From an uncultured bacterium (GTDB taxonomy: Bacteria; Verrucomicrobiota; Kiritimatiellia; PWTM01), in contig CALLFZ010000026.1 of the NCBI GenBank assembly GCA_938010045.1, positions 62,001 to 126,000 of the forward strand: a DNA stretch of 64,000 nucleotides. Direction: 5' to 3'. The notes under the pieces are model-generated. The model was not told the origin of the DNA. It saw only the letters and a list, made by a program, of their open reading frames with translations, and did not search any database. Position 1 is the stretch's first letter, and the number at the start of each line of letters is the position of its first letter. Below are positions 16,366 through 27,445 of the stretch, in pieces. Made by a program: the position numbers and the translations under genes.

Positions 16366-17169
16366 ATGAGCACGGACACTGATGCCTGGACCGTGGCCCG
16401 TATTCGCGCGATGAAGGGGCGGCGGTTCGCGTGCGTCACGGCGACCGATGCAGTCACGGCGCGCTGGGCCGACGCGGCGGGCATTCCGCTGGTGCTGGTC
16501 GGCGACTCGCTCGCGATGACAGTGCTTGGCCACTCAACCACGCTGCCGGCCACGATGGAGGCAATGCTGCACCATACTGCGGCGGTCGTGCGCGGGGCCG
16601 GTCGTGCGCTCGTGATCGCGGATATGCCCTTTATGTCGTACCAAGTGTCCGACGATCAGGCGCTCGCGAACGCCGGGCGGTTTCTGCAGGAGGCGGGCGC
16701 GGCGGGCGTGAAGCTCGAGGGCGGGCGCGTGCGGGCCGGCACAGTGCGGCGCCTGGTGAACAACGGCATTCCCGTGCTCGGGCACATCGGCCTGCTGCCG
16801 CAGAGCGTGCGCGCGATGGGCGGCTATCCGGTGCAGGGGCGCCGCCCCTCGGAGGCGGCGCGCCTCGTGGCCGACGCGCGCGCGTTGGAGGACGCCGGCG
16901 CGTTCGCGATCGTGCTGGAGGGAATGCCGCCCGCCGTGGCTCGGCGCATCACCCAGTCGGTCCAGGTGCCCACCATCGGCATCGGCGCCGGCCCGCAATG
17001 CGACGGTCAGATCCTCGTGATCCACGATCTACTCGGTCTGGCCGGCGGGCGGTCGCCGAAGTTCGTGGCTCGCTACGCGGAGCTCGGCGCGCAGGCGGTC
17101 GCCGCGCTCGAACAGTTCCGCCGCGACGTGGAAGCCGGGCGGTTTCCCACCACCGAGCACTGCTACTGA
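16366..17169 (+). CDS. panB: 3-methyl-2-oxobutanoate hydroxymethyltransferase PanB
   Basis: A 267-residue enzyme of standard length. It shows VTATDAVTARWADAAGIPLVLVGDSLAMTVLGH, the segment VIADMPFMSYQ, AAGVKLEGG, GIPVLGHIGLLPQSV, and TIGIGAGPQCDGQILVIHDLLGL, all PanB signatures that bind Mg2+ and ketopantoate. It transfers a hydroxymethyl group from methylene-tetrahydrofolate to alpha-ketoisovalerate, the first step of pantothenate synthesis. panC follows 18 bases downstream, so the two form an operon; panD and panE are not in the window. The second motif, usually TYDA, reads TATDA. Confidence 0.97.
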   Translation: MSTDTDAWTVARIRAMKGRRFACVTATDAVTARWADAAGIPLVLVGDSLAMTVLGHSTTLPATMEAMLHHTAAVVRGAGRALVIADMPFMSYQVSDDQALANAGRFLQEAGAAGVKLEGGRVRAGTVRRLVNNGIPVLGHIGLLPQSVRAMGGYPVQGRRPSEAARLVADARALEDAGAFAIVLEGMPPAVARRITQSVQVPTIGIGAGPQCDGQILVIHDLLGLAGGRSPKFVARYAELGAQAVAALEQFRRDVEAGRFPTTEHCY

Positions 17170-17187
17170 GGCGCCGGAGCCCCGTCC

Positions 17188-18051
17188 GTGCTCGTGATCT
17201 CCGACTCCGCCGAGATGCAGCGTCAGGCGCTGGCCTGGCGGGCGGAGGGCCGCCGGATCGCGGTTGTGCCGACGATGGGCGCGTTGCACGAGGGGCATCG
17301 CTCGCTGATTCGGATCGCGCGCGCGCGGGCCGAGCGGGTGATCGTCACACTGTTTGTGAACCCAACGCAGTTCGGGCCGGGTGAGGACTTCGATCGCTAT
17401 CCGCGCTGTTTCGAGCGCGACCGCGCGATGTGCGAGGCGGACGGGGTGGACGCCGTGTTCGCGCCCTCCGTCGCCGCGATGTACGCGCCGGATCACAGCA
17501 CATGGGTCGAGGAAACCACGCTCTCGCGGGGCCTCTGCGGCGCGAGTCGGCCGGGGCATTTTCGCGGCGTCGCGACGGTCGTCGTGAAGCTCTTCATGCT
17601 CACGCAGCCGCATCTGGCAGTGTTCGGTGAGAAGGACGCACAGCAGCTGCGGGTCGTCCGGCGCGTCGTACGCGACCTGAACCTGCCGGTCGAGATCGTC
17701 GCCGCGCCGACGGTGCGCGAGGCGGATGGACTCGCGATGAGTTCGCGCAACGCGTATCTCACGCCCAACGAGCGCCGGCAGGCGGTCGCGCTCCGCCGCG
17801 CGCTGGACGAGGCCGAGCGCCGCTTCGCGGCCGGCGAACGCGAGGCGGCCGCGCTGCGCGAGGCGATCGCCGCGATGATCCGGCGGCTTGCCCCCGCCGC
17901 CACGCCGGACTACATCGAAATCGTGGACGACGAAACGCTCGAACCGATCGACACGGTGGACCGGCCCGCGCTCGTCGCGATTGCCGTGCGGTTCCCCTCG
18001 GCGCGGCTGATTGATAACACCGTGCTGCGGCCGGCCGGTGGAGCGCGCTGA
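17188..18051 (+). CDS. panC: pantothenate synthetase PanC
   Basis: This 287-residue ATP-dependent ligase starts at a GTG (17188). It has VPTMGALHEGHRSLI (ATP-binding, HxGH), VTLFVNPTQFGPGEDFDRYPR, the LCGASRPGHFRGVATVV pantoate loop, VFGEKDAQQLRVVRRVVRDL, and the lysine/serine loop GLAMSSRNAYL. It joins pantoate and beta-alanine to make pantothenate. It sits directly behind panB. Its stop at 18049-18051 directly abuts the stop of the convergent deaminase gene, leaving no intergenic base. Confidence 0.97.
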   Translation: MLVISDSAEMQRQALAWRAEGRRIAVVPTMGALHEGHRSLIRIARARAERVIVTLFVNPTQFGPGEDFDRYPRCFERDRAMCEADGVDAVFAPSVAAMYAPDHSTWVEETTLSRGLCGASRPGHFRGVATVVVKLFMLTQPHLAVFGEKDAQQLRVVRRVVRDLNLPVEIVAAPTVREADGLAMSSRNAYLTPNERRQAVALRRALDEAERRFAAGEREAAALREAIAAMIRRLAPAATPDYIEIVDDETLEPIDTVDRPALVAIAVRFPSARLIDNTVLRPAGGAR

Positions 18052-20315: not shown

Positions 20316-21074
20316 TCAGCGGTTCGACGAGGCAACCGGCAGCACGTGCGTGACCTCGCGGTTCTGGATTCGTACGATCCGTTCCTCCTCGCGCTCCGCG
20401 CCGCCTTCGCGAATCCGCAGCCGAACGCCGACCTCCCAGGCCGCGCCGGCGCGCCGCACGCCGCGCCACGCCACCGGCTCGATTTGGCGCGACGCGGTCT
20501 CGAACAGCCGAACATAGTGTTCCACGAGGGGTGCCGAACCGTCGGGCCGCACCTGCGGTGGCGCGTTGTCATCCGGCGCGATGCCGATCCAGGAAAGCAC
20601 CCGTTCCCACCACGAAAGATCCGCGCGTGATGTCCGCGCAATGCGCCGACCGGTCACCTCGGTGGTGCCGGTGCCGAAACATGCGGAACACGCAATGCGA
20701 CCGCTCCCGCCACACGCCGGACATTTCGTACGCGCAGTAGTGGTTTTGCCGGTACCGCGGCAGGCGGGACATGTCGTCGAAGAGGAGCCCAGTGTCCGAT
20801 CGGACTTCGTGCGGCGTACTAGCGAGCCGGTGGAGATGCGCCCGCTGCCCTGGCAGGTTGAGCAGGTCGTCTCGATGCCGGTGGTCCAGCCAGAGCCGCC
20901 GCATGCGGAACACACCGTATAGCCGGTGCCCTGACAGGTTTCGCAGCGCGCGGTCTCAGCCACGGGCTGCGAACGTTCAACGATCACGATGGGCTGCGTG
21001 CGACCGAACACATACAGCGCCGCGCCCCCGGCGGCCAGCAACAGCACGATCACGATGGCAGCCCGTACCTTCAT
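20316..21074 (-). CDS. membrane-anchored DnaJ-type zinc-finger protein without J domain
   Basis: The 252-residue protein has one N-terminal transmembrane helix (residues 4-23, AAIVIVLLLAAGGAALYVFG) and then five CxxCxGxG-type units (CETCQGTG, CSACGGSG, CSTCQGSG, CPACRGTG, CPACGGSG) plus a sixth CSACFGTG, the zinc-binding modules seen in DnaJ. There is no HPD-containing J domain. The C-terminal 90 residues (PLVEHYVRLFETASRQIEPVAWRG...) look like a small globular domain. It lies eight bases downstream of the prenyltransferase-repeat gene and may belong to that operon. Function is unknown; such proteins may serve as thiol or zinc-dependent scaffolds at the membrane. Confidence 0.8.
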   Translation of the reverse strand: MKVRAAIVIVLLLAAGGAALYVFGRTQPIVIVERSQPVAETARCETCQGTGYTVCSACGGSGWTTGIETTCSTCQGSGRISTGSLVRRTKSDRTLGSSSTTCPACRGTGKTTTARTKCPACGGSGRIACSACFGTGTTEVTGRRIARTSRADLSWWERVLSWIGIAPDDNAPPQVRPDGSAPLVEHYVRLFETASRQIEPVAWRGVRRAGAAWEVGVRLRIREGGAEREEERIVRIQNREVTHVLPVASSNR

Positions 21075-21082
21075 CGATCAGT

Positions 21083-21940
21083 CTACGATGTATCCCTCGC
21101 CAACGCGCCGATCGCGAGCACAGCGTACCAGCTTGACTCGACATCGGAGGAGGGCTGGCCGGGTCGCTGGGCGAAGCCACCGTCGGCGCAGAGGTGGGCC
21201 ATCACAAATTGAATATCGCGCTCCGGGTTGTCCGCAGGTGGGCGGCCGGCGAGGTCAAACGCGAAGGCGGCCACGGCCGTCGCCAGCAGATCGGCGGCGG
21301 AAAGACCCACCGCCACACGCCAGCCGCCCTCTGGATGGCGGAGTGCGGTCAAACGTTCGGCGCAGACGGCCGCCGTGCGTGGATCACCGAGTCGTTGAGC
21401 GACCACCCAAGTGGCCGCGAGGGTAGGCGCCAGCGAGACGGCGAGCGCGTCGGCATGCCCCGAACACGCCGGCCCATCATCCGTCGCCGTTGAGGTCTCC
21501 GGATGGGTGAGATCGTCCGCCAGCAGCGCGAGAAATCGGCCATAGGGACTGGCGTGGGCCGAGGCCGTGACCTCCGCCACCGCTGCACTCATGTCGGCGG
21601 GAACCAGTGGCCGGCTCCCGAGGGCGCGACGGCAACGAAGCAGCGACAGCAGATACACTCTGTCCCCGTCCGGCGGCCGGATCCGTTCGACCCATGCGAG
21701 GTCCTCTGCTCGCGGCGGCAGTCCCAAGGCGACCGCCAGTTCAAAGCCGAAGCCCGAGAAGTAGAGGTCCGGGCGGTCGTCGAGACCACGGATTCCGCCC
21801 TCCGGCGCCTGCAGTTCGCGAAGTCGTTCGCGCAGACGTGCGCGTTGCGGTTCGTTGAGCGCTGCGGCGCCGCGGTGTAGCCGAGCCAGGATCTGGTCCA
21901 CCAGCGATGCGCTTCGCGGGCGATCCATCACGGCGCTCAC
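21083..21940 (-). CDS. prenyltransferase/squalene-oxidase-repeat protein
   Basis: The 285-residue protein is built from alpha/alpha-toroid repeats: LRELQAPEGGIRGLDDRPDLYFSGFGFELAVALGL, LRHPEGGWRVAVGLSAADLLATAVAAFAF and CADGGFAQRPGQPSSDVESSWYAVLAIGAL. The repeated GG(F/W/I) turns are those of class II terpene cyclases and protein prenyltransferase beta subunits. At this length it is one barrel only, half a squalene-hopene cyclase. I see no DxDD acid motif and no Cys-His zinc pair, so an active site is not evident. It overlaps the stop... of the polyprenyl synthase gene by four bases (21937-21940), so they are co-translated. It may bind the isoprenoid made by its partner. Confidence 0.78.
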   Translation of the reverse strand: MSAVMDRPRSASLVDQILARLHRGAAALNEPQRARLRERLRELQAPEGGIRGLDDRPDLYFSGFGFELAVALGLPPRAEDLAWVERIRPPDGDRVYLLSLLRCRRALGSRPLVPADMSAAVAEVTASAHASPYGRFLALLADDLTHPETSTATDDGPACSGHADALAVSLAPTLAATWVVAQRLGDPRTAAVCAERLTALRHPEGGWRVAVGLSAADLLATAVAAFAFDLAGRPPADNPERDIQFVMAHLCADGGFAQRPGQPSSDVESSWYAVLAIGALARDTS

Positions 21941-23565
21941 GGCCGGGAGAGGATGCGGCCCACGATCCGGCGCAACAGACTCTTCAACGGGACATTGTGC
22001 ACCTGTTCGAGCGATCGGATCGCGGCATTGCGGTGGTGGTCGAGCAGCAGTTTTGCGCGCTCGACCACCCCCGCGGTGCGAATGAACTCAGCCATCCGCG
22101 AGGCTGCGCCCGGGCTCGGGCGGCACCAGTCGCGCTCGACCTTCTCCTTCTGCGGTCCCGCCGCCGTTTCCCACGCGAGGGCCGAGAGAATGGAAAGGCG
22201 CGGCGCGGCATCGCCATCGGCCGGCGGCTCGTCGAGGTCGTCGAGATCGTCACGGATTTGGTAGGCGATGCCGATCGCGGCGCTGTATTCGCGCACGGCG
22301 GCCTCCACCGCGGCCGAGGGTTCGCCGGCGGCGAGCGTGCCGAGCCGCAGCGCCACCTCGAAGGCGGGGGCGGTTTTCAATCGGAAGATGTCGAGTACTC
22401 GCTTTGGTTCGATCGGTTCGGGCGCGCGCAGCCACGCCAGCTCCTCGCCCTGGCCCGCACAGAGAGCGCGGTGGCCTTCCGTGGCGGCGCCGAGCAGCCG
22501 TGCGATACGTTCGGGCGGCGCGCCGCACTCGGCGATGCGCCGATACCCCTCGCCCACGAGCGCGTCGCCGACGTTGATCGCGATCGGCACACCGTGCTCG
22601 ACGTGCACGGCGGGGCGACCGTAGCGGATCGGGTCGTCATCCTCGATGTCGTCGTGGATCAGCGACGCCTTGTGGAAGCATTCCACCGCCAGCGCGAGCG
22701 ATCGCACCATCGTGGGTACGGTCTGGCCATTCTCTTGCAGCGCGCGCCAAGCGGCGACGACGAGGAACGGACGCCACCGCTTCCCGCCTCGGACCACCCA
22801 CTCCCGAGCGATCCGCTCGGCCGAACCGGACGGCACCCCGAACCAGCGCTCGATCTCCTCGGCGGTGAACCAACCGGCCACCTCCTCGTGCAGACGCTCC
22901 AGGTCCGTGCGGCCAAACCACTCCGCGGATGACCGTAGCTCGATGGCCTCGCGGGCCCAATCCAAATCGAGCACCGTTTCTCGGCAGCCCTCGTGCAGCA
23001 GCGGAATCGCGAGTCCCGGAATCGCCTCGGCGGAGAGATGCGGAAACGCGCGTTCGAGCACCGAAAGGCAACTCACGCCGATCACCGCATCCACCTGTCC
23101 GCCCTCGATTAAGCGCGTCACGACCGTGGCGCCCTCCGCGACGAGCGTCAGGTAGCCGAGCCGCTCCGCGAGCGTCTGCAGTTCGCCGATCGGGCATCGG
23201 CCGCACCCCTGGCAGAGCACGCCGAACGAATCCATCGGCGCCGGGCAGTCGTCTGCCGGCCGCAGACACTGGGGTAAGAGCAGCAGGCGCCGGTCAAACG
23301 GGGTTGCGGCGACGATGTCGCGCCAGAGCGCGTTGTTGAGCAGCACGGCGACGAACTCGAGCCACTCGGGCGCACCGCCCTGCTGAACAATGAGCCGCCG
23401 CGCGTGCATGCGCAGGTCGTCCGCGGTCAGGGGTGGCGTCAGATCGTGGCATCGCGCATACGCCTCGGCTTCGACTCGCAGCCGCTGCCGTTCGGCACGA
23501 TCCACCGGCACGGCGGCACAACCCCGTTGTTGCGCGGCCAACGCCAGTGCGCGGGCCTCAGCCAT
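21937..23565 (-). CDS. DUF116-polyprenyl synthase fusion
   Basis: The 542-residue protein joins two domains. Residues 80-220 match DUF116: RLLLLPQCLRPADDC, VLCQGCGRCPIGELQTLAERLGY, VIGVSCLSVLERAF, GLAIPLLHEGCRETVLD, with conserved cysteines that may hold a metal or Fe-S cluster. Residues 245-520 form a trans-isoprenyl diphosphate synthase: GGKRWRPFLVVAAW, the first Asp-rich motif LIHDDIEDDDPIRYGRPAVH, GEGYRRIAE, FRLKTAPAFEVALRLG and the second Asp-rich motif YQIRDDLDDLDEPP. Both Asp motifs are intact, so chain elongation from IPP is expected. The bulky residues before the first motif are HKASL, so product length cannot be fixed. It overlaps both neighbours and lies in a four-gene operon. Confidence 0.88.
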   Translation of the reverse strand: MAEARALALAAQQRGCAAVPVDRAERQRLRVEAEAYARCHDLTPPLTADDLRMHARRLIVQQGGAPEWLEFVAVLLNNALWRDIVAATPFDRRLLLLPQCLRPADDCPAPMDSFGVLCQGCGRCPIGELQTLAERLGYLTLVAEGATVVTRLIEGGQVDAVIGVSCLSVLERAFPHLSAEAIPGLAIPLLHEGCRETVLDLDWAREAIELRSSAEWFGRTDLERLHEEVAGWFTAEEIERWFGVPSGSAERIAREWVVRGGKRWRPFLVVAAWRALQENGQTVPTMVRSLALAVECFHKASLIHDDIEDDDPIRYGRPAVHVEHGVPIAINVGDALVGEGYRRIAECGAPPERIARLLGAATEGHRALCAGQGEELAWLRAPEPIEPKRVLDIFRLKTAPAFEVALRLGTLAAGEPSAAVEAAVREYSAAIGIAYQIRDDLDDLDEPPADGDAAPRLSILSALAWETAAGPQKEKVERDWCRPSPGAASRMAEFIRTAGVVERAKLLLDHHRNAAIRSLEQVHNVPLKSLLRRIVGRILSRP

Positions 23566-24754
23566 AGGCGCTCATTCCGAACCACAGGTTTCGCTTCAAT
23601 TGACGATACATCCACACCCGTTCGGCGATCGGCACAGCACTCCCGTGGTCGGGTCGGACTTGCATCCGATCCAACTCCGCACGGGCCGAACCACGCCCAC
23701 TGGTGTCGCGCGCGCCGATCGCGTCGAGACACTCGGCGAGGCCCCCGGGATCGCGCAATAGGATACACCCCCCGTTGGCCCGCGCCAGCCGCGAGCGCAC
23801 ATCCCGCAAAAAAACGGAGGCGGCCATTCGGCCGCGCGCGTTCGCGCCGTCGCCGATGGTCTCGGCCGCGAACTGGATCACCGGGCACGGCTCAATGTCT
23901 CCGCCGGGCCCGACATGGTGGCTGAGCCCGATCGCGGCCGGACACACTGGCCGCCCGTCCGCATCCCAATAGGAGTCCATGATCAGCAGCGGCCAGCGTC
24001 CCCGCGCTTCGACGAGAAATTCGCGAACCCGCCGAATCGCGGCCTCATCCAGCGCCAGCTCCGGTGCGGGCCGCGGGCCCACGGGTCGGTAGATGTAGTA
24101 CCAAACATAGTGCACGCCCCGTTCCACCAGCTCTGCGAGAAACCGTTCTCCGGTCATCTCATCGAGATTGGTGCGGCAGAGGCTGGTCGCAACGCCGGTG
24201 ATGAGCCCGTGGCGGCGCGCGGCCTCGACGGCGGCCCAGGCGCGGTCGGCCACGGAGCGGGCGCCGCGGCGCTCGTCGGCAACTGCGCCGGTGCCCTCGA
24301 TGCTGATCAGGGGCGACACGTTGCCGAGCCGCCGGAACCGCTCGGCGGTCGCGTCGTCCAGCCGCCAGCCGTTCGTGAACACCTGAAAATAGGCCTCGGG
24401 GTGCCGGCCGAGCACGTCCAACACACCGGGGTACAAAAGCGGTTCGCCGCCGAGCACGCCGATGAGCGGTGCGCCGCCGTCCGCCATCCATCCCTCGATG
24501 AGACGATCGAGCACCGCGGGGTCGATCGAGCGGGGCGGCCGCGAGGGGGTCACCCAGCAGCCGAGGCACGAGAGATTGCAGTCGTCGGTGATGGAGACGA
24601 ACAACAACGGTGGCGAGGCCGCGTCACCCACGGCCGCGGCGCGCCGCCATGCGCGAATCGACCGCGCCGAGCGCGCGGCGGCCGACGCGAACCGCGCCAG
24701 GAGTCGTGGCGGCGTGCCTCTGAACCACCGCCCTAGCAGCCGCGCTGCGATCAC
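23558..24754 (-). CDS. radical SAM protein with C-terminal Cys-containing extension
   Basis: The start is the GTG at 24754, which overlaps the ferredoxin gene's stop (GTGA), giving 398 residues. The cluster motif is in LFVSITDDCNLSCLGCWV (CxxxCxxC), followed by GVLGGEPLLYPG (SAM-contacting GGE), FTNGWRLDD, SPLISIEGTG and ITGVATSLCRTN. The C-terminal part (VCPAAIGLSHHVGPGGDIEPCPVIQFA) has a SPASM-like Cys pattern but too few cysteines for two extra clusters. An N-terminal Arg-rich, amphipathic stretch may touch the membrane. It overlaps the polyprenyl synthase start by eight bases. The reaction is unknown; HpnH, a radical SAM enzyme of hopanoid synthesis, offers a precedent for terpenoid substrates. 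Confidence 0.88.
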   Translation of the reverse strand: MIAARLLGRWFRGTPPRLLARFASAAARSARSIRAWRRAAAVGDAASPPLLFVSITDDCNLSCLGCWVTPSRPPRSIDPAVLDRLIEGWMADGGAPLIGVLGGEPLLYPGVLDVLGRHPEAYFQVFTNGWRLDDATAERFRRLGNVSPLISIEGTGAVADERRGARSVADRAWAAVEAARRHGLITGVATSLCRTNLDEMTGERFLAELVERGVHYVWYYIYRPVGPRPAPELALDEAAIRRVREFLVEARGRWPLLIMDSYWDADGRPVCPAAIGLSHHVGPGGDIEPCPVIQFAAETIGDGANARGRMAASVFLRDVRSRLARANGGCILLRDPGGLAECLDAIGARDTSGRGSARAELDRMQVRPDHGSAVPIAERVWMYRQLKRNLWFGMSAYG

Positions 24755-25524
24755 GGACCCGCACCCGTGTCGGGCCGGCTCGGCGCGCCCCGGCTGGCGG
24801 CCAGTCGCCGGCGTTCGGCCAGCGCGGCGCGCAGGTCGCCCCGGCCTATCCACTCCAATTGTCGGCGGAGCGCGCGGGCCCGTTCGGTCTCTTCGTCGGT
24901 GATCTCGGCGCCCTCGAACGGCGGCTCGGTGTGTTTCGGAAAGATAATCGCGACCTGGGGACAGATCCGCGCGCACGCCGGACAGTGCGGTTTACAGTTC
25001 GCCGGCCGCACCACATGCACACGGCCATCGCGGCGCTCGTAGACGCCAAAAAGACAAAACTCAACACACTGGCCGCAGGCCGTGCAGCGCGCGGAGTCAA
25101 TCACCGGAAACCAAGGCAGCCAGCCGTCCGGCGGCGCATCGGACGCGGGGAGCTCCTCGGTCGAGGTGGTCGGCACCGCGTCGACGCCGGCCCGCTGGGC
25201 TGCCTCCTGGGGATCCGCGCCGACGAGGTCCACGCAGCGCACGGCGACCGGTGCGCCCTCGAGGGTATGTGCTGCCAGCGCGCGCACCGCGCGGGGCCGG
25301 CATGCGACGATCAGTCCGCCGCCCTCGCGAAGCCATTCCACCCACCACTCGGCCCGACGCGCCGCCGCTTCGCAAAGGTCATTGATCACGCGAACGGTCC
25401 AGCCCGCCGCGCGCGCCGCGGCGGCCACCGCGTCCGCCGCCGCCGGATCCACGCGGCGGCTCCACGCGCAGCGGCACACCACCGCGCGCCGTGCGTCCGC
25501 GCCCCGCTGGGCTTCCGCCGCCAT
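24751..25524 (-). CDS. 4Fe-4S ferredoxin-domain protein
   Basis: The 257-residue protein has an N-terminal Rossmann-like region (AVVCRCAWSRRVDPAAADAV, GGGLIVACRPRAVRAL) resembling the electron-transfer or hydrogenase-delta type domains, and a C-terminal pair of cluster motifs: CTACGQCVEFCLFGVYERRDGR and CKPHCPACARICPQVAIIFPKH. This is enough for one or two 4Fe-4S clusters. The last 50 residues are an Arg/Glu-rich helix (ETERARALRRQLEWIGRGDLRAALAERRRLAA). As the first gene of the operon it probably supplies electrons to the radical SAM enzyme that follows with a four-base overlap. Confidence 0.85.
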   Translation of the reverse strand: MAAEAQRGADARRAVVCRCAWSRRVDPAAADAVAAAARAAGWTVRVINDLCEAAARRAEWWVEWLREGGGLIVACRPRAVRALAAHTLEGAPVAVRCVDLVGADPQEAAQRAGVDAVPTTSTEELPASDAPPDGWLPWFPVIDSARCTACGQCVEFCLFGVYERRDGRVHVVRPANCKPHCPACARICPQVAIIFPKHTEPPFEGAEITDEETERARALRRQLEWIGRGDLRAALAERRRLAASRGAPSRPDTGAGP

Positions 25525-25537
25525 CGCCTCCCCACGA

Positions 25538-26752
25538 TCAGCGCGCGACCCGGAGGCTCACGATCGTACCGCGGTCACTGCGCATGAACAGCCGCCCGTC
25601 GCTCCACACCGGCGCGGTCCAGATCTTGCCGTCGGTGACCACGCGGGCGCGGTGCACGAGCTGCCGGTAACCGGCCGGGGTGGCTTCGACGACCGAAATA
25701 TCCCCCTTTTCGTTAAAGTACACGAGATAGCCGTTGATCTTGATGAGCGAGCCGAAGCCCATGCGCTGCCGCCATAGCTCCTGACCGTCGGCCGCGCGCA
25801 CACACACCAGGTCACCTCGCCCATTATTGCCGTCGCAGCCATAGATGTGGCCATCGTGCAGCACGACGCTGCTGAAGTGGCTCGCGATCGCCTTGTTTCG
25901 CCACACCTCGCGGGGTTGGGGGCCGGACACGTCGAGCAGCGCGCAGCCCTTGCCGTAGCCCGACGAGATGAACCATCGGTTCTCGGCGATGGGCTCCGGA
26001 TCCGCCGCGTTGACGTCCCACGAGGTTTTCCACGGGTACTCGACCACGACCTTCCCGTTCTCGGCATCGACGATGAAGAACGCCTTCGCGCCGAACAGCG
26101 CGAGGTGAAGGCGGCCGGCGCGCTGAAACGGGACGGGCGTCGAATACCCGGTGGTGCCACCGCCGCCGTTCCACAGCATGCGCCCGGTGGCCTTGTCCAG
26201 CGCGCAGCCCGACCGGCCGATGTTCAGGTACACCACGTTGCTGATCACTAGCGGCGAACCCGCCAAGCCCCACTCGCCGACATCGGCATTCATTTCCTTC
26301 GCGACGTTGCGAATCCACACCGGCTTGCCCGTCTTCAGATCGAGACAGGCCGCGTCGCCCCAATAGCCGAGCGTGTAGACGCGGCTACCCTCAATCCAGG
26401 GCGAGGCGCGTGGGCCGGGATAGCTGCCAGGCTGGGCGGGATAGGTGTGGCGCCACAACTGGCGGCCGGTGCGCACGTCGATCGCCACAATGTGGTCTCG
26501 CTCACCGTCGTTGCCGAGCGTTACGCCAACTCCGCCGGCGACCGAGAGCGCCGAGTAACCCCGGCCGACCGATACGGTCCACTCGATGGCGCCGCGTTCG
26601 ACTCCCGCCGGATCGAAGGCCGCGTCTTCCACGATGCCGTTCCCGTTCGGACCTCGGAAGCGCGGCCAATCGCCCGCGGCGACCATCTGGAGTGGGCTGA
26701 TCAGCGGGAGTCCAACGGTGATGAGGAAGGGTAGTATCTGAACCGGTTTCAT
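25538..26752 (-). CDS. secreted PQQ-binding-like beta-propeller protein
   Basis: The start ATG at 26752 is preceded by AAAGGAA and opens a signal peptide (MKPVQILPFLITVGLPLISPLQMVAAGDW). The 404-residue body begins with WPRFRGPNGNG and repeats propeller blades of the form AIDVRTGRQLWRH, CLDLKTGKPVWIRN, ALDKATGRMLWNG and CVRAADGQELWRQ. This is the outer-membrane-assembly/PQQ-like beta-propeller family common in planctomycetes and verrucomicrobia. No cofactor-binding residues are visible, so enzyme activity is unlikely; binding to polysaccharide or protein is the usual guess. It lies 13 bases upstream of the ferredoxin gene and could lead that operon. Confidence 0.85.
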   Translation of the reverse strand: MKPVQILPFLITVGLPLISPLQMVAAGDWPRFRGPNGNGIVEDAAFDPAGVERGAIEWTVSVGRGYSALSVAGGVGVTLGNDGERDHIVAIDVRTGRQLWRHTYPAQPGSYPGPRASPWIEGSRVYTLGYWGDAACLDLKTGKPVWIRNVAKEMNADVGEWGLAGSPLVISNVVYLNIGRSGCALDKATGRMLWNGGGGTTGYSTPVPFQRAGRLHLALFGAKAFFIVDAENGKVVVEYPWKTSWDVNAADPEPIAENRWFISSGYGKGCALLDVSGPQPREVWRNKAIASHFSSVVLHDGHIYGCDGNNGRGDLVCVRAADGQELWRQRMGFGSLIKINGYLVYFNEKGDISVVEATPAGYRQLVHRARVVTDGKIWTAPVWSDGRLFMRSDRGTIVSLRVAR

Positions 26753-27445
26753 GCCGGATGTTCCTTTCCGCGATGCGCGCCGCCCGACGGCGTCCATGCC
26801 CGCGACGCGGAGCTTAGCGATCCACCGGGGCTCTGACAACACAACCAGCCGCCAGCTGTGCCGATGGCGTGGTGGGGCGGGGGGCTGTGAATCGAGGTGG
26901 TCGTCGGGATCCGCCGCGGTCCTCATGCTCCGCACCTGTCCGGCGCGCCTCGAACGCGACTGTCGCCGAGGCAGCGGCTTCTCCAACGCATGGACAGGTA
27001 CGGAGGCGGCACGTCCAAGCATTGGAGGCATGGCCGACATCGCCGGCGCGCCCAGCTCGCGCGCCTTCGAGGCGGGCGGCAGAGCACGGCACCCAACACC
27101 TCGCGTTGCCGCTCTGAACGCCCGCGGAGCTGCCGCTACCGGGGCTCTCCAAGGCTGAACGTCGCTGCGCTGCCCCCCCCGTCCGTCCCAGGCGGCGCTC
27201 AAGGCCAGCGGCGACCGCATGGCCCCTGTGGTCGCGAGCGGTGGCCGCGGCCAGAGCATCGTGGCACTACGTGAATCCCGACTCAGCGTGTGTGGTGACA
27301 GCGCGCAGTGCGGCAATTTCGATCGTCGCGTGCCGGCCGCACGAATACCGTCGGCCTACGATTCCGCCCCAGCGCCGGGCGAGAAGAACGCGTGACGTGG
27401 GCGCGCCGGGTTTTTCCTCGCCGGCCTTTCGCCCCCCGCGCCGGT
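26753..27445. other. 690-base gene-free interval containing a palindromic repeat
   Basis: No frame in this stretch shows family resemblance, although the frame of the propeller gene stays open upstream. The only clear structure is the bipartite palindrome at 26982-27026. The promoter of the propeller gene should lie in the lower-coordinate part. Confidence 0.5.
26982..27026. repeat. bipartite TCCAA-N3-TTGGA palindrome element, copy 2
   Basis: TCCAACGCATGGA (26982-26994) and TCCAAGCATTGGA (27014-27026) start 32 bp apart, the same pitch as copy 1 at 14750. The left palindrome has one mismatch. The 18-base spacers of both copies are purine/GC-rich (CAGGTACGGAGGCGGCAC here). Confidence 0.6.

Follow-up and report, generated by a model that had tools for sequence, protein, structure and literature searches.

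A conserved bacterial cassette around a DUF116-polyprenyl diphosphate synthase fusion: a terpenoid pathway with a candidate iron-sulfur route to chain coupling

Background

To our knowledge, a single protein family (PF00494, comprising SQS, CrtB and HpnC/HpnD) accounts for every known squalene or phytoene synthase. Among the other systems closest to the locus studied here are the squalene-hopene and the Bacillus tetraprenyl-beta-curcumene (sesquarterpene) cyclases, the radical S-adenosylmethionine (SAM) enzyme HpnH, which acts on a triterpenoid, and IspH, the 4-hydroxy-3-methylbut-2-enyl diphosphate reductase, an iron-sulfur (Fe-S) enzyme that reduces an allylic diphosphate. Here we analyse a four-gene operon located at positions 21,083 to 25,524 of a 64,000-nucleotide stretch (the window) of contig CALLFZ010000026.1 from an uncultured bacterium of the Kiritimatiellia. 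The operon encodes an Fe-S protein, a radical SAM enzyme, a fusion of DUF116 with a polyprenyl diphosphate synthase (the fusion) and an alpha/alpha-toroid protein.

Makarova et al. 2015 (PMC5898192) devoted a single sentence to the same domain fusion (Psta_0175 of Pirellula staleyi) and predicted electron transfer as the role and a flavodoxin-like fold for DUF116; the passages of that paper dealing with DUF116 offer no pathway, partners, cyclase link or relation to CrtI or PF00494. Similarly, the part of an Antarctic soil metagenome paper that touches on squalene-hopene cyclase and radical SAM enzymes does not describe this gene set. In the literature searched we found no pathway with this set, as the original prediction had supposed, and no description of the cassette or of DUF116 in isoprenoid coupling. 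The cassette is a widespread bacterial terpenoid pathway that is undescribed in that literature. We tentatively read the operon as the central part of a terpenoid pathway that works without the known squalene/phytoene synthases and in which the DUF116 Fe-S domain reductively joins allylic diphosphates, a reading that we regard as quite possible, if somewhat short of probable.

Results and discussion

The operon and its conservation

The original prediction had described four overlapping genes transcribed together. All four open reading frames were confirmed on the minus strand, with overlaps of 4 bases between the genes of the Fe-S protein and the radical SAM enzyme (24751-24754), 8 bases between those of the radical SAM enzyme and the fusion (23558-23565) and 4 bases between those of the fusion and the toroid protein (21937-21940). 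The motifs are all intact, and we read the genes as one operon. The domain calls for the ferredoxin, the radical SAM enzyme and the DUF116-polyprenyl synthase were confirmed by Pfam, and that for the toroid by a profile of its relatives. Among the matches listed, NCBIfam gave no equivalog above cut-off for any of the four proteins. The genes and their domains are:

24751..25524, minus strand: Fe-S protein, 257 amino acids, with a four-Cys N-terminal domain and a dicluster 4Fe-4S ferredoxin domain
25135-25524, minus strand: four-Cys N-terminal domain of the Fe-S protein (CxC...C...C pattern)
24943-25110, minus strand: dicluster 4Fe-4S ferredoxin domain of the Fe-S protein, residues 138-194 (Fer4-type matches)
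23558..24754, minus strand: radical SAM enzyme, 398 amino acids, GTG start at 24754 (PF04055, 56.8 bits; Cys conservation; orthologue distribution)
21937..23565, minus strand: DUF116-polyprenyl diphosphate synthase fusion, 542 amino acids (PF01976 and PF00348 in one protein; AlphaFold2 model; fold matches in the PDB)
22945..23361, minus strand: DUF116 domain of the fusion (PF01976; seven invariant Cys)
22225..22812, minus strand: isoprenyl diphosphate synthase domain of the fusion, with both Asp-rich motifs (PF00348)
21083..21940, minus strand: single alpha/alpha-toroid protein, 285 amino acids, without DxDD and without zinc-ligand Cys/His (profile matches; alignment)

Genome comparison found the four genes conserved together, the opposite of what the original prediction had named as its refutation. 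The comparison covered 289 genomes of the window's phylum (the phylum sample), many of them incomplete metagenome-assembled genomes (MAGs), and a collection of named genomes, in which hundreds of candidate stretches carried the fusion and 80 loci were kept. Gene families at the relatives' loci were defined by cross-locus similarity. The fusion was present in 51 of the 289 phylum genomes. An orthologue of the radical SAM enzyme was found in 47 of these 51 and in none of the 238 others, also where the two genes are unlinked, and a squalene-cyclase-like gene with the DxDD motif in 50 of the 51 and in two others (Fisher p=2e-52, 289 genomes; the sampled genomes are related, so that co-occurrence p-values overstate independence). 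Because they co-occur across the phylum sample even when unlinked, the fusion, the radical SAM enzyme and the cyclase very probably belong to a single functional unit.

Physical linkage was also common. The radical SAM enzyme, the Fe-S proteins and the toroid protein were each encoded within 6 kb of the fusion in 13 of the 15 phylum loci that had enough flanking sequence; in 44 named loci the corresponding numbers were 26, 29 and 24. The recurrent gene order is Fe-S protein, radical SAM enzyme, DUF116-isoprenyl diphosphate synthase, toroid protein, cyclase. This conservation rules out a chance grouping of the four genes. Most of the 80 named loci are labelled Verrucomicrobia or Planctomycetes; the remainder come from Kiritimatiellae, Lentisphaeria and a few MAGs labelled Acidobacteria. 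Pirellula staleyi and Chthoniobacter flavus are cultured carriers of the fusion.

Standalone DUF116 and the squalene/phytoene synthase family

The DUF116-synthase fusion had been singled out as the strangest element of the operon. The fusion is real, and the clue to it lies outside the window, in standalone copies of DUF116 that stand by CrtI and IspH and exclude PF00494. Standalone DUF116 was found in 12 genomes of the phylum sample, none of which has PF00494 and ten of which have CrtI. At these loci a CrtI-family desaturase adjoins DUF116 in 7 of 12 cases, and the adjoining desaturases that were scored all pass the TIGR02734 cut-off. The 36 CrtI-bearing phylum genomes divide into 26 with PF00494 and 10 with standalone DUF116; none has both and none has neither. 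This strict exclusion holds for standalone DUF116 in the phylum sample only. Standalone DUF116 holds the same niche beside CrtI as the PF00494 family, to which it has no sequence relation: DUF116 is Cys-rich and lacks the helical-bundle core of isoprenoid synthases, and neither the fusion nor any of the scanned standalone DUF116 proteins matched PF00494 in Pfam.

An orthologous carotenoid gene cluster of the order CrtI1-AldH-CrtI2 carries DUF116 in three genomes (G003, G029 and G203) and a PF00494 gene in a fourth (G065), the best family for the latter being squalene synthase with 70.7 bits, below the cut-off of that model. Within a single genus (g20), two genomes (G093, G263) have DUF116 and two others (G223, G231) have PF00494. 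Of the 14 control genomes, only the two methanogens, M. jannaschii and M. acetivorans, gave a DUF116 match; PF00494 was found in seven others and in neither of these two. Second DUF116 copies in two phylum genomes (L152 in G166 and L153 in G095) had no CrtI or IspH in the stretch examined; in G095 a CrtI gene is on another contig than this copy.

The ispH gene lies near standalone DUF116 at five of the twelve loci (L144, L145, L148, L151 and L154), an adjacency that, quite apart from the fusion, ties DUF116 to isoprenoid metabolism. These IspH neighbours, together with the ferredoxin-type and four-Cys proteins around the fusion, are also what would be expected if DUF116 were an electron-transfer module only, serving IspH, the radical SAM enzyme or a reductase, with the chains joined by another coupling enzyme; electron transfer and a flavodoxin-like fold are what the DUF116 passages of Makarova et al. 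predicted (PMC5898192). Such a role leaves unexplained, however, why standalone DUF116 and PF00494 exclude each other in CrtI genomes and why, in an orthologous cluster, DUF116 stands in for a squalene-synthase-like gene, and no other shared coupling candidate is known. We consider this alternative unlikely, although it is the rival to be taken most seriously.

The fusion protein and the proposed coupling

With PF01976 at 109 bits (gathering cut-off 25) and PF00348 at 135 bits, the fusion belongs to both DUF116 and the trans-isoprenyl diphosphate synthases. In the synthase domain the first (D305-D306-x-x-D309) and the second (D439-D440) Asp-rich motifs are invariant in 24 relatives. The AlphaFold2 model of the full fusion (predicted local distance difference test score, pLDDT, 87.7) had as its top fold matches in the PDB only isoprenyl synthases (geranylgeranyl diphosphate (GGPP) synthases, Foldseek E about 1e-12). 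The DUF116 domain contains seven invariant cysteines (C100, C107, C118, C121, C124, C166 and C194), all of which are common to fused and standalone DUF116. In a search for relatives of the fusion on plasmids, the best matches covered the synthase part alone.

In the pathway that we propose, the synthase domain would make an allylic polyprenyl diphosphate and supply it to the neighbouring DUF116 domain. The latter, as a putative Fe-S enzyme that receives electrons from the ferredoxin-type protein of the operon, would join two chains head-to-head (2 R-OPP + 2 e- -> R-R + 2 PPi). The product would be a squalene- or phytoene-like hydrocarbon, namely squalene if the substrate is farnesyl diphosphate (FPP) and a C40 analogue if it is GGPP. 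The toroid protein may bind or present the chain, the DxDD squalene-cyclase-like enzyme would cyclise the hydrocarbon and the radical SAM enzyme would modify the product; the order of these steps is the one that we infer. By mechanistic analogy with IspH, which reduces an allylic diphosphate, a ferredoxin-fed Fe-S enzyme could perform a reductive coupling of this kind.

A wider version of the idea is possible, if rather doubtful. DUF116 would then be a new class of squalene/phytoene synthase, non-homologous to PF00494, that uses Fe-S chemistry for a direct, reductive two-electron coupling of two allylic prenyl diphosphates, its standalone form feeding carotenoid desaturases and its fused form a divergent cyclase. 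In methanogens it would perhaps be the missing head-to-head enzyme for hydrocarbons such as squalanes, pentamethylicosane and crocetane. For the isoprenoid hydrocarbons of archaea a definite route has yet to be established (PMC12669819), and the presence of DUF116 without PF00494 in the two control methanogens makes this long-standing question testable. If DUF116 is such an enzyme, a second, Fe-S-based solution would alter how one traces carotenoid, hopanoid-like and biomarker lipids through genomes and rocks; it would also account for pigment or triterpenoid genes in genomes that seemingly lack the committed step. Even with DUF116 as a mere electron carrier, the cassette is a widespread terpenoid pathway that the literature searched does not describe.

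Several points, besides the relatedness of the sampled genomes mentioned above, weigh against the coupling reading. The model of DUF116 by itself (pLDDT 83.0, with lower confidence at the Cys loops) matched no solved structure at E<=0.001, and for this reason we claim no fold family for it; the putative active site has no fold match behind it, and standalone DUF116 has only about 150 amino acids. In the synthase, the residues that precede the first Asp-rich motif (Ala at -5, Ser at -4 and, at -8, mostly Phe) speak against a plain farnesyl synthase and, as we interpret them, may favour products of C20 or longer over FPP. The adjacency to IspH is also compatible with an electron-transfer role, and DUF116 also occurs in sulfite/nitrite reductase loci of methanogens, as stated in the DUF116 passages of Makarova et al. 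(PMC5898192). Finally, PF00494 is present in 35 of 50 named fusion genomes, mostly labelled Verrucomicrobia.

The last point calls for a closer look at PF00494 in fusion genomes. Strict replacement of PF00494 by the fusion everywhere was considered and rejected, both being present in those 35 genomes. Of the 51 phylum genomes with the fusion, 41 gave no PF00494 match, and across the phylum sample the fusion and PF00494 were not significantly associated (p=0.48). The genome of the window has a PF00494 gene; since it lies beside a CrtI desaturase, it probably serves carotenoids. The cassette does not need PF00494 and, as the named genomes show, is not confined to genomes without it. Genomes with CrtI that carry the fusion only, without standalone DUF116, all keep PF00494, which suggests that fused DUF116 is dedicated to the cyclase pathway.

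The toroid protein and the partner cyclase

The operon had been predicted to make a polyprenyl chain and to modify it by radical chemistry, with the toroid protein binding or cyclising it. Isoprenoid chain making and a radical SAM partner were supported, whereas a role of the toroid as cyclase was not. Pfam matches of SQHop/Prenyltrans type on the toroid are weak; in the PDB, a profile built from 24 relatives matched Rab geranylgeranyltransferase beta (E=9e-12) and also squalene-hopene cyclase (E=1e-8). At the place of DxDD, the motif of class II terpene cyclases, the relatives have a PDLLST-type sequence and the window protein DLLAT. Nor is the zinc site of the prenyltransferase beta subunits present, the conserved motifs reading DxE and DLYY with no Cys or His. 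The toroid was rejected as the cyclase on account of the absent DxDD and of the separate full-length DxDD cyclase gene, whose almost perfect co-occurrence with the fusion makes cyclisation by the toroid unlikely.

At the relatives' loci a full-length squalene-cyclase-like gene with a DADD motif follows directly downstream of the toroid gene. In the genome of the window (G000) this partner cyclase is on another contig (C15) and is 48% identical to a Planctomycetota cyclase. It shares with the squalene-hopene and the sesquarterpene cyclases both SQHop domains and the DADD motif (D355-A-D357-D358, near-invariant), which conforms to DxDD, but differs from them in its divergent score, its linkage to the DUF116-synthase and, in the phylum sample, its being mostly independent of PF00494. 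Against the squalene-hopene cyclase equivalog TIGR01507 it scored 87.6 bits, the cut-off being 431.

This low score is among the facts that would suit a fused version without coupling. The synthase would then make one long prenyl diphosphate, DUF116 would reductively remove or handle the diphosphate in the manner of IspH, and the cyclase would act on a single chain, as do the Bacillus sesquarterpene or the class II diterpene cyclases. The first Asp-rich motif resembles that of GGPP or longer-chain synthases, if the Ala and Ser preceding it are interpreted as above, and in many fusion genomes PF00494 is retained for other products. On the other hand, standalone DUF116, with the same cysteines, tracks carotenoid desaturation, a role that needs coupling, and we regard the single-chain scheme as improbable.

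Longer cassettes

Longer cassettes in other bacteria add, upstream, genes for a GcvH-like lipoyl carrier, a CobW-type GTPase, a separate short four-Cys protein and sometimes NifS. In the window the short four-Cys protein and the ferredoxin are joined in one protein. The GcvH-like protein of the longer cassettes retains the lipoyl Lys. The genome of the window has no clear copy of the GcvH-like or CobW-type genes, with one weak match for each. In one cassette (L041:5170-6953) the GcvH-like protein and the CobW-type GTPase, the latter with a CFCC motif, fell far short of the NCBIfam cut-offs for the named proteins to which they are related (73 versus 117 bits for GcvH), and such cassette proteins may be families of their own. 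In another genome (G066, L172:6710-8636) the radical SAM gene lies far from the fusion, yet adjoins a GcvH-like gene; these two may constitute a unit of their own.

That NifS, GcvH-like, CobW, four-Cys and ferredoxin genes stand beside the fusion in many loci, with the lipoyl Lys kept and with the radical SAM and GcvH-like genes adjoining even apart from the fusion, could point to sulfur or another group being put on the terpenoid by radical SAM chemistry, DUF116 taking part in sulfur handling. This explanation suits none but the long cassettes: beside the fusion, no such genes are present in the window genome or in many relatives, the matches to GcvH and CobW in the window's own genome were weak, and none of these genes is in view in the CrtI context of DUF116. 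We judge it very improbable, and retain reductive coupling as the preferred function of DUF116.

The radical SAM enzyme and the Fe-S protein

The match to PF04055 makes the second protein of the operon a radical SAM enzyme, with a CX3CX2C motif whose cysteines (C59, C63 and C66) are near-invariant. Four further cysteines are also near-invariant and, judging from the sequence, likely bind one auxiliary cluster. The CX3CX2C core and the extra C-terminal cysteines are shared with the HpnH/twitch/SPASM radical SAM enzymes. HpnH, which acts on a triterpenoid, had been cited as a precedent; the window enzyme is no close relative of it, scoring 26.3 bits for HpnH (TIGR03470, cut-off 225). The NCBIfam matches listed are all far under their cut-offs, the best being GeoRSP with 39 bits (cut-off 400).

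Several Fer4 models match the Fe-S protein, PF00037 being the only one above its curated cut-off. The CxC...C...C pattern of its N-terminal domain, which recurs in relatives as a separate protein of about 130 amino acids, presumably resembles the N-terminal domain of HdrA. A profile search of PDB sequences with the four-Cys domain returned no HdrA, and the matches obtained look like artefacts.

Genes next to the operon

Two neighbouring genes had been proposed as possible members of the set:

25538..26773, minus strand: pyrroloquinoline quinone (PQQ)-type beta-propeller protein, probably associated with the operon and 13 bases upstream of it (PF13360)
20316..21074, minus strand: membrane protein 8 bases downstream of the operon, with a Cys-rich zinc-finger region of DnaJ type, perhaps co-transcribed, lineage-specific (PF00684)

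For the membrane protein the proposal was not supported, since a counterpart was seen solely in two loci of the same genus (67 and 47% identity). The propeller gene is likely linked to the set: it is directly upstream in G017, G050 and G213 (80, 59 and 61% identity), and propeller genes of this type recur beside the cassette in several relatives of the same genus, of the same family and at other loci. It was not supported as an invariable part of the cassette, being near a minority of the named loci only. At one locus (L116:9132-12370) a propeller gene of this type adjoins a squalene-cyclase-like gene in divergent orientation. Elsewhere in the window (16366-18051), with no visible operon link, two adjoining genes resemble, by eye, the pantothenate genes panB and panC.

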